Part shown: positions 35,035-60,917 of the stretch, piece by piece
Layout of the letters: every line of letters starts with the position of its first letter
How positions within the stretch are numbered: position 1 is the stretch's first letter
Source of the DNA: Polynucleobacter sp.
GTDB lineage: Bacteria > Pseudomonadota > Gammaproteobacteria > Burkholderiales > Burkholderiaceae
Reading direction: 5' to 3'
Length of the DNA: 64,000 bases
NCBI RefSeq assembly: GCF_018500155.2
Contig: NZ_JAHBAK020000039.1
Location: 1-64,000 of the forward strand
Translations under genes and position numbers: made by a program
Notes under the pieces: generated by a model
Seen by the model: the letters and a program-made list of their open reading frames with translations, nothing else
Database searches by the model: none
Told to the model about the DNA's origin: nothing

Positions 35035-35120
35035 TATCTAACCCTGTATCAATCAGCCAAGCGCTCAAATTACGCTTGGTCACTAAGTTAATTACTATAT
35101 TTGTTAATTTTCACCTGATA

Positions 35121-35747
35121 ATGGTCGATATGCACGGGAATTCAGTAAAAACACTTCGCCAAGAATTATTAAAACAACGCAAAGATTTTGCGGTTGGGGC
35201 GAATTACTCGCAAGCATCTGCCGCTCTTATAGCCAGTCTGAATAATTTTTTGGTAAAGGAGGGTGCAGCTTTTAGGTCGATTGCGCTGTACTGGCCTATT
35301 CAAGACGAAATCGATTTACGCCCTGCTTTATCGATCTGGGCGAAAAGCGCTATTGGGCGACTGCTAGCACTTCCTGTAGCTCGCCCAGACAAACATCTTG
35401 ATTTCTATGAATGGCAAGAAGGTGATAGCTTGGTTCCAAGCGAATACGGGATACCGGAGCCAGATCCTAGCAATATAGCTAGGCCTGCAATACATCCTGA
35501 CTGCATCTTGATTCCTTGCGTGGGATGGTCGAGCTCGACTGCGAATGACAAAACGTATTATTGGCGCCTAGGCTACGGTGGCGGCTATTTTGACCGCACA
35601 CTTTCCACGCTCCGCCAAAAAAATCCCAATCTCATTTGCATTGGTATTGGCTTTGATTGGCAAAAACTAGATGACAGTCAATGGGCTGCGCAAACTCACG
35701 ACGAGCCCCTAGACTTCCTGATTACTGAATCAGGCTTACTACGTTAG
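35121..35747 (+). CDS. 5-formyltetrahydrofolate cyclo-ligase family protein
   Basis: ALYWPIQDEIDLRPAL, PCVGWS...YYWRLGYGGGYFDRTL; ATG at 35121 likely rather than 35076. Confidence 0.87.
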   Translation: MVDMHGNSVKTLRQELLKQRKDFAVGANYSQASAALIASLNNFLVKEGAAFRSIALYWPIQDEIDLRPALSIWAKSAIGRLLALPVARPDKHLDFYEWQEGDSLVPSEYGIPEPDPSNIARPAIHPDCILIPCVGWSSSTANDKTYYWRLGYGGGYFDRTLSTLRQKNPNLICIGIGFDWQKLDDSQWAAQTHDEPLDFLITESGLLR

Positions 35748-36566
35748 ATCCAAATTCTCGGCAATGGCAAGCACAGCATCGGCCTGATTCAGAGAATAAA
35801 AATGTAAACCCGGGGCTCCAGCGGTGAGAAGTTGATCACATAAATCCGTTACCACTTCTTCGCCAAATGCACGTATTGAGGCAATATCATCGCCATAAGA
35901 CTGCAGACGCAATCTTATCCAACGTGGAATCTCTGCGCCACATGCATCGGAGAAGCGCAACAATTGACTGCTATTGGTAATCGGCATGATGCCAGCAATG
36001 ATTGGCTGTGAAACACCCAAATCATAAGCCTCATCAACAAAACGAAAGTAGGCATCACTATTGTAAAAATACTGTGTAACAGCGGAGTTAGCACCAGCTT
36101 TCATCTTCTGCACAAAGAAATCAACATCGCTTGCAGGCGACTTTGCCTGCGGATGAGTTTCCGGATAAGCAGCAACATCAATATGAAACCAATCACCGGT
36201 CTCAGAGCGGATAAATTCCACTAATTCATTGGCGTGATGGAACTCACCATACTGACCCATTCCAGAAGGTAAATCACCACGTAAAGCCACAATACGCTTT
36301 ACGCCAAGCGTCTGATATTGCTTGAGCATTTCACGCACACTTTCACGCGAACTACCTACGCAAGATAAGTGGGGAGCAACAACAGCGCCAGCAGCATGAA
36401 TATCACTTACCACCTTAAGAGTGCCAGATTGGGTGGAACCGCCGGCACCAAAAGTCACGGAATAAAACGAAGGCTTGAGCGTTTCACTGAAACGCTCTCG
36501 CACAAGATGCAACTTATTCTCACCTTCCGGTGTTTTTGGAGGAAAGAACTCGACGCTTAATTCCAT
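35739..36566 (-). CDS. metF: Methylenetetrahydrofolate reductase
   Basis: MELSVEFFPPKTPEGE, FYSVTFGAGGST, VKRIVALRGDLPSG, GANSAVTQYFYNSDAYFRF. Confidence 0.95.
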   Translation of the reverse strand: MELSVEFFPPKTPEGENKLHLVRERFSETLKPSFYSVTFGAGGSTQSGTLKVVSDIHAAGAVVAPHLSCVGSSRESVREMLKQYQTLGVKRIVALRGDLPSGMGQYGEFHHANELVEFIRSETGDWFHIDVAAYPETHPQAKSPASDVDFFVQKMKAGANSAVTQYFYNSDAYFRFVDEAYDLGVSQPIIAGIMPITNSSQLLRFSDACGAEIPRWIRLRLQSYGDDIASIRAFGEEVVTDLCDQLLTAGAPGLHFYSLNQADAVLAIAENLDLT

Positions 36567-36596: not shown

Positions 36597-38042
36597 TTAA
36601 TAACGATAGTGGTCAGCCTTGTATGGGCCTTCCTTCGTTACGCCAATATATGCGGCTTGTTGATCAGTCAATTCAGTCAGTTGGGCATTGAGTTTCTTGA
36701 GCTGCAAGCGTGCAACCTTTTCATCCAAATGCTTTGGCAAGGTGTAAACACCGATTGGGTATTTATTAGTACCCACTGCATTCCACAACTCAATTTGCGC
36801 AATGACTTGATTGGCAAATGAAGAGCTCATTACATAAGAAGGGTGACCCGTGCCACAACCGAGGTTTACAAGGCGGCCCTTAGCCAAAATGATTAAACGC
36901 TTTTCAGGCTGACCATTGGTGGCTGGGAATATCACATGATCAACTTGAGGTTTGATCTCTTCCCATTTGTACTTTTCAATACCAGCTACATCGATTTCAT
37001 TATCAAAGTGACCAATATTACAAACGATTGCTTGATCTTTCATTTTCACCATATGGTCATGCGTGATCACATGGTAGTTACCAGTAGCTGAAACAAAGAT
37101 GTCTGCTTTATCTGCCGCGTAGTCCATCGTGACGACGCGATAGCCTTCCATGGCTGCTTGCAGGGCGCAGATTGGATCAATTTCAGTAACCCAAACTTGG
37201 GCTGACAGGGCACGTAGAGCCTGTGCAGAGCCTTTACCTACATCACCGTAACCGCAAACGACTGCAACCTTACCTGCCACCATCACATCCGTTGCGCGCT
37301 TGATAGCGTCAACCAATGATTCGCGGCAACCATAGAGGTTATCAAACTTGCTCTTAGTTACTGAGTCATTCACGTTAATCGCTGGGAACTTTAATTCACC
37401 TTTAGCAAACATTTGGTAGAGACGGTGTACGCCTGTAGTGGTCTCTTCAGTAACGCCCTTCACTTTTTCCAAGCGTGTGGAATACCAAGTTGGATCTTCT
37501 GCTAGTTTTTTCTTGATCGCTGCAAAAAGAATAGTTTCTTCTTCGCTAGTAGGGTGATTTAAACAAGCTTGATCTTTCTCAGCACGGGCGCCAAGATGCA
37601 ACAACAAAGTAGCATCGCCACCGTCATCCAAAATCATATTGGTATAACCGCCATCAGCCCATTCAAAAATGCGATGAGTGAAGTCCCAATACTGTTCCAG
37701 TGTTTCGCCTTTAATTGCGTATACAGGGGTGCCATTAGCGGCAATAGCTGCTGCAGCATGATCTTGGGTTGAGAAAATATTGCAAGACGCCCATTGCACT
37801 TCTGCACCAAGAGCCTCGAGGGTCTCGATTAATACTGCAGTCTGAATGGTCATATGCAATGAACCAGTAATCCGCGCGCCACGTAGGGGCTGTTGTGCTG
37901 CAAACTCATCGCGAATAGCGATTAAGCCCGGCATCTCAGTTTCAGCAATGGCGATCTCTTTGCGGCCAAAGTCAGCCAATGAAATATCAGCAATTGCGCA
38001 ACGAGTTGCTACAAAGTTTTTTAAGTCAGTAACGGTATTCAT
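36597..38042 (-). CDS. ahcY: Adenosylhomocysteinase
   Basis: [38 protein letters not shown]-terminal [10 protein letters not shown]; start at 38042 with GGAG just upstream, not the longer ORF start at 38102. Confidence 0.96.
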
Positions 38043-38047
38043 GAATG

Positions 38048-38076
38048 CTCCAGCTAAATACGATCCAATGCTGGAG
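38048..38076 (-). promoter_or_regulatory. Putative Shine-Dalgarno-sequestering hairpin of the SAH riboswitch expression platform
   Basis: CUCCAGC (38076-38070) perfectly complementary to GCUGGAG (38054-38048), which contains the ahcY SD GGAG. Confidence 0.65.
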
Positions 38077-38110
38077 TACAAACTCGCTAGCCGTTGAATC
38101 ATGGGTTAGC

Positions 38111-38208
38111 GAGCGCAGTTGCAATTAGCAATTTCCATTTCGAAAATCACTCCCTTCAAGCCTGGGGAAATATTGAAGATTAACATTCCTTGCAACGCTC
38201 CTTGAAGG
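38111..38208 (-). promoter_or_regulatory. SAH (S-adenosylhomocysteine) riboswitch aptamer
   Basis: Minus-strand RNA CCUUCAAG-GAGCGUUGCA...CAGG-CUUGAAGG...GCAACUGCGCUC: P1 8-bp stem (38208-38201/38160-38153) and pseudoknot GAGCG+UUGC with GCAA+CGCUC (38111-38122); directly upstream of ahcY-metF. Confidence 0.92.
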
Positions 38209-38210
38209 TA

Positions 38211-38236
38211 TGGCGTAATTGTAAACAATTACGCCA
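38211..38236. repeat. Perfect 11-bp inverted repeat with 4-nt loop
   Basis: TGGCGTAATTG TAAA CAATTACGCCA between metK and the SAH aptamer. Confidence 0.9.
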
Positions 38237-38293: not shown

Positions 38294-39460
38294 TTAAAGA
38301 CCTGCTGCTGCACGTAATGCAGCCGCTTTATCAGTCTGCTCCCAGGTAAATTCTGGCTCTTCACGTCCAAAGTGGCCGTAAGCTGCAGTTTTCCGATAAA
38401 TCGGACGCAATAAATTCAGCATCTTCACAATACCTTTTGGACGCAAATCAAAGTGCTCAGACACCAATTGCGCAATCTTTTCATCAGAGATCTTGCCAGT
38501 ACCAAAAGTACTCACCATCACTGATGTAGGTTTTGCAACACCAATTGCATAAGAAATCTGAATCAAGCATTTGCTTGCTAAACCTGCAGCTACTACGTTC
38601 TTAGCTACATAACGTCCTGCATAGGCAGCAGAGCGGTCCACTTTTGAAGGATCTTTGCCTGAGAATGCACCGCCACCATGAGGAGCTGCGCCGCCATAGG
38701 TATCCACAATAATTTTGCGACCAGTCAAGCCACAATCACCTTGTGGACCGCCAATCACAAAACGACCTGTTGGATTTACCAAGAAGTTAATTGCGCCCTT
38801 AATCAAATGTTTAGGTAATACAGGTTTGATGATTTCTTCAACTACCGCTTCACGCAATTTTTCCAAGGAGATATCTTCATCATGTTGGGTAGACAAAACA
38901 ACGGTATCTATTGAGTCAGGCTTGCCATCTACATAACGCAGAGTAACTTGTGACTTCGCATCTGGGCGCAACCAAGTTAGACGTCCATCACGACGCAGCT
39001 GTGATTGACGCTCAACCAAACGGTGTGACAAATGGATCGGTAGTGGCATGAGTTCCGCCGTTTCATCACAAGCGTAACCAAACATTAAACCTTGGTCACC
39101 AGCACCTTGGTCTAGGCCATCGTCATGAGCCTTATCAACACCTTGGGCAATGTCTGGACTTTGCTTGTCATAAGCCACCAGGACTGCACAACCTTTGTAG
39201 TCGATGCCATAAGCAGTATTGTCGTAACCAATTTCACGCAAAGTATTGCGTGCCACTTGTATGTAATCTACGTTTGCATTGGTAGTAATTTCTCCTGCGA
39301 GCACTACCAGACCGGTATTACATAAGGTTTCTGCAGCAACGCGTGCAGTAGGATCTTGGGCCAAGATGGCATCCAAAATTGAATCTGAGATTTGGTCCGC
39401 TACTTTATCGGGGTGACCTTCAGAGACTGACTCTGAGGTAAAGAAGTAATCATTTGCCAT
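38294..39460 (-). CDS. metK: S-adenosylmethionine synthetase
   Basis: [54 protein letters not shown]. Confidence 0.97.
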
Positions 39461-60830: not shown

Positions 60831-60873
60831 TCTTTGAGCAGTCGTAGGTTAGCGCAAGCAAATTGAAAGCAAT

Positions 60874-60901
60874 AAAAAAGCCCGGCATGCCGGGCTTTTT
60901 T
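60874..60901. terminator. Bidirectional rho-independent terminator between rodA and HU gene
   Basis: aaaaaagcccggcatgccgggctttttt: perfect GC-rich dyad AGCCCGGCATGCCGGGCT flanked by A and T tracts. Confidence 0.93.
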
Positions 60902-60917
60902 AATAACTAAGGAAGAA

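Follow-up and report, generated by a model that had tools for sequence, protein, structure and literature searches.

An SAH riboswitch upstream of ahcY-metF in Polynucleobacter and a proposed model of its switching

Riboswitches of the SAH family sense the by-product S-adenosylhomocysteine (SAH) and switch on SAH-recycling genes. Here we examine a candidate member in a 64,000-nucleotide stretch of DNA (the window) from Polynucleobacter, a freshwater bacterium, in which an initial annotation had proposed an SAH riboswitch between metK and ahcY. In beta-proteobacteria, ahcY-metF is the core SAH-riboswitch regulon and metK lies outside its control, according to the passages on these regulons in PMC4239095. 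The Polynucleobacter locus resembles the regulons described there for Ralstonia, Burkholderia and Comamonadaceae in its ahcY and metF targets, in leaving metK uncontrolled and in having one or two elements per genome, a single copy being present in the genome analysed here; the initial annotation, which had called this the expected regulon, agrees with that description. Unlike those lineages, Polynucleobacter is absent from the main text of PMC4239095, and a 5' palindrome such as the one found here is not described in its passages on these regulons.

Identity and anatomy of the aptamer

When the window was scanned with all 4227 Rfam families, the single match was RF01057 (SAH riboswitch), at 38209-38104 on the minus strand, with 49.3 bits and a window-wide E of 4.3e-6, covering positions 1-78 of the 78 of the model. 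The covariance search that had been proposed as a check thus returned a significant score, above the gathering cut-off of 37 bits. P1, P2 and the conserved core (GAGCG-UGC and CCAGG) are all present, and the distal strand GCAACUGCGCUC pairs with GAGCGUUGC to form the P4 pseudoknot (Table 1); in relatives, this distal strand is invariant save for two positions. The coordinates first given, 38111-38208, are correct for the minus-strand sequence, and the 8-bp P1, the conserved core and the distal pseudoknot strand all lie where they had been placed.

The full match to the model, P1, P2, the GAGCG..CAGG core, the distal P4 strand and the downstream ahcY-metF are features shared with RF01057 at large. 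The locus differs from the Rfam model in a 10-bp P3 hairpin, in a region that the model leaves unpaired, and in a lineage-specific expression platform outside the paired part of the model. In relatives, 34 of 70 distinct P1-P4 linkers could fold into a helix of at least 8 pairs (G.U allowed), compared with about 2.6% of shuffles.

Compact pseudoknots in the leaders of methionine-cycle genes are known from several classes (PMC10907184), and the element could in principle belong to another SAM- or SAH-binding class, such as SAM/SAH or SAM-II, and respond to SAM. This is very improbable, as RF01057 alone reaches its cut-off, and does so over the full model, and a target of ahcY-metF rather than metK suits the SAH class as its regulons are presented in those passages of PMC4239095. 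The score of 49.3 bits is moderate beside those of relatives, which reach up to 70 bits, as might be expected of a functionless relic or a chance resemblance; however, nearly all genomes of the genus retain the element, with conserved core and platform, and we give this reading next to no weight. Since the covariance model, the gene context and the near-universal conservation in genus and family agree, the element is almost certainly the SAH riboswitch of ahcY-metF, as initially annotated, and it is an ordinary new member of a known family. The RNA of 38209-38104 would accordingly be expected to bind SAH, judging from its sequence.

Table 1. Features of the metK-ahcY-metF locus in the window
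Feature	Position	Strand	Basis or remark
metK, methionine adenosyltransferase, upstream gene	38294..39460	-	TIGR01034
Perfect 13-bp palindrome TATGGCGTAATTG-TTTA-CAATTACGCCATA, 4-nt loop	38209..38238	-	arm covariation in relatives
-10-like hexamer TACAAT; predicted +1 A at 38211	38218..38223	-	leader conservation; putative promoter
SAH riboswitch aptamer (RF01057)	38104..38209	-	cmscan 49.3 bits, full length
P1 5' strand CCUUCAAG	38201..38208	-	sequence and model alignment
P4 pseudoknot 5' strand GAGCGUUGC	38192..38200	-	sequence and model alignment
P2 hairpin GGAAUGUU/AAUAUUUC	38167..38189	-	model alignment and fold
CCAGG of core	38161-38165	-	sequence
P1 3' strand CUUGAAGG	38153..38160	-	sequence and model alignment
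P3 hairpin AGUGAUUUUC/GGAAAUUGCU, P1-P4 linker	38127..38151	-	fold; relatives' linkers against shuffles
P4 pseudoknot 3' strand GCAACUGCGCUC	38111..38122	-	sequence and model alignment; duplex about -10 kcal/mol
Anti-P4 helix 5' strand GCUCGCUAACC, overlaps P4 end	38104..38114	-	alignment, 96.4% of cells paired
Anti-P4 helix 3' strand GGCUAGCGAGU, one A.C mismatch in this genome	38082..38092	-	same alignment
Anti-Shine-Dalgarno strand CUCCAGC	38070..38076	-	leader helix count against shuffles
GCUGGAG with ahcY Shine-Dalgarno GGAG (38051-38048)	38048..38054	-	leader helix count against shuffles
ahcY, adenosylhomocysteinase	36597..38042	-	TIGR00936; closest solved chain 3d64
metF, methylenetetrahydrofolate reductase	35739..36566	-	TIGR00676

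Gene neighbourhood and distribution

The riboswitch lies between metK upstream and ahcY downstream, as had been noted, and thus ahead of SAM-cycle genes (ahcY and metF), the location expected for RF01057; the matches of the three genes to TIGR01034 (metK), TIGR00936 (ahcY) and TIGR00676 (metF) are all above the curated cut-offs. The 30-nt interval reported between ahcY and metF is exact (stop 36597, start 36566). On the opposite strand, a gene for 5-formyltetrahydrofolate cyclo-ligase (35076-35747) shares 9 bp with the end of metF. The true start of ahcY is likely the ATG at 38042, which is preceded by a Shine-Dalgarno sequence. We rejected the ORF start at 38102 because its frame is not conserved, a single nucleotide disrupting it in L020 and others, and because its ATG sits in the loop of the anti-P4 helix. 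The longest ahcY ORF begins 60 nt upstream of the likely start, such that automatic annotation could mis-assign it.

The same riboswitch was found in 143 of 151 Polynucleobacter genomes (116 of the 117 of good quality) and, across the family, in 188 of 200. Among the genus genomes with no match are the incomplete G028, G092, G112 and G138, in which ahcY sits at the end of a contig or close to it. A loss of ahcY and riboswitch in G033, listed as complete, was considered and rejected because metK is absent from the same genome, the stretch being probably missing. A search of viral contigs for the SAH-riboswitch core pattern found none. In one genome of the genus, a second SAH riboswitch (L119, G015:C86:21563-22456) lies before metH, 20 kb from the ahcY copy on the same contig; as its leader ends much like the ahcY copy of that genome, it likely arose by local duplication.

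Alternative helices and a model of switching

The 3' strand of P4 overlaps an 11-pair helix, anti-P4, and the two structures are mutually exclusive. Over 65 distinct leaders, 96.4% of the cells of anti-P4 are paired, against 19-42% when the helix is slid. Among 71 distinct leaders, 57 have a Watson-Crick helix over the GGAG of the ahcY Shine-Dalgarno sequence, with 7 bp in 36 of them, where shuffles give 14% and about 0.6%, respectively; the other 14 have no helix over the full GGAG. All these counts are inflated by the shared ancestry of the leaders. Two-sided changes are confined to one anti-P4 pair, which goes from G-C to A-U in 13 of the 65 leaders, and G.U variants are seen elsewhere. The anti-P4 hairpin (-12.3 kcal/mol) and the P4 duplex (-10.0 kcal/mol) are of similar stability. 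With the P4 strands masked, pairing of the Shine-Dalgarno sequence went from 0.71-0.98 to 0.28-0.72, such that it is still partly paired in the model.

From this structural competition, we infer both the direction of switching and control at the level of translation. The leader most likely has a promoter of its own, from which transcription would begin about 3 nt upstream of P1. At high SAH, the P1/P2/P4 pseudoknot would bind the ligand and hold GCGCUC in P4, which would block the formation of the anti-P4 helix GCUCGCUAACC/GGCUAGCGAGU; the downstream RNA would then refold and free the GGAG from CUCCAGC, such that ahcY, and then metF, could be translated. At low SAH, the anti-P4 helix would displace P4 and the Shine-Dalgarno sequence would remain paired. 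In its details, this translational ON-switch platform is a model that we favour with moderate confidence.

The same aptamer could act instead on transcription, the anti-P4 helix being an intrinsic terminator whose formation is prevented by SAH binding. In relatives such as L018, L063 and L088, the helix is indeed followed by a U-run (GGCGGGCUUUUUU, GGUGGGCUUUUUUUU). In the window, however, only UUUGU follows it, and the terminator scan gave no site there, a hairpin over the Shine-Dalgarno sequence being present instead; termination is therefore an unlikely explanation at this locus, and translational control remains our preferred reading. The U-run after the anti-P4 helix is terminator-like in L018, L063, L088 and L103, where the switch may act by termination. 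Given the leaders with no helix over the full GGAG and the several relatives with a U-run after anti-P4, the mode of control may vary between clades of the genus.

A promoter-like hexamer and the palindrome over it

All 90 genus leaders contain a TAYAAT hexamer; in 89 it lies 16-18 nt ahead of GAGCG, and an A occupies the predicted +1 position in 83 of the 90. In one group, the hexamer arises at the stop codon of metK; in most loci of the family, TACAAT is found at 14-16 nt. A good -35 box for a sigma-70 promoter was not found at the leader, so it is the -10-like hexamer that suggests a riboswitch promoter; from its position, the transcript would begin at the foot of P1, 3 nt before the helix.

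The hexamer is spanned by the palindrome, which abuts P1. In 48 genomes, pairs 6, 8 and 9, numbered from the loop, underwent at least 6, 6 and 7 changes, always on both sides, these counts being approximate because the tree of flanking sequence from which they were taken is weakly resolved and L028, with short flanks, is misplaced in it. Over pairs 1-11 in these genomes, there is one half-changed state only (L109, a G.U). A further 72 loci, partly from the same genomes and picked without requiring a match to the outer left arm, gave 9 distinct variable palindrome blocks and two half-changed forms. On the wider alignment, the palindrome scores 0.222 for covariation, compared with 0.061 for shuffles.

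We rejected the palindrome as a dispersed repeat, its core occurring once in the genome, and as a terminator of metK, there being no U-run after it. It is like the operators of SahR, SamR and MetR in that it lies over the promoter of a SAM-cycle gene, but it covaries at its variable positions instead of keeping a motif, and the MetR site ATGAA-N5-TTCAT is absent from its 30 bp. The passages of PMC4239095 on the distribution of SahR report it from alpha, delta and some gamma groups, but not from beta. Constraint on the promoter can account for the right arm. We propose, tentatively and with some doubt, that the riboswitch promoter of one Polynucleobacter subclade carries a structurally maintained palindrome, which may be a functional hairpin in RNA read through from metK, an operator or DNA structure at the promoter, or a palindrome that template-switch mutation keeps perfect. 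Elsewhere in the window, a second perfect 13-bp inverted repeat (60873-60902) is bounded by A/T runs on either side and resembles a bidirectional terminator.

Our analysis confirms a correct annotation and adds to it a proposed expression platform, a P3 hairpin, a promoter-like hexamer, a 5' palindrome and the likely ahcY start. For Polynucleobacter, it supplies this start and a testable switching model, in which the ligand would activate the expression of ahcY-metF. Were the palindrome a read-through hairpin or a DNA structure or operator, it would be a second regulatory layer on an SAH riboswitch, and, as it covaries, it could show whether near-perfect inverted repeats of bacteria persist by structural selection or by mutational copying.
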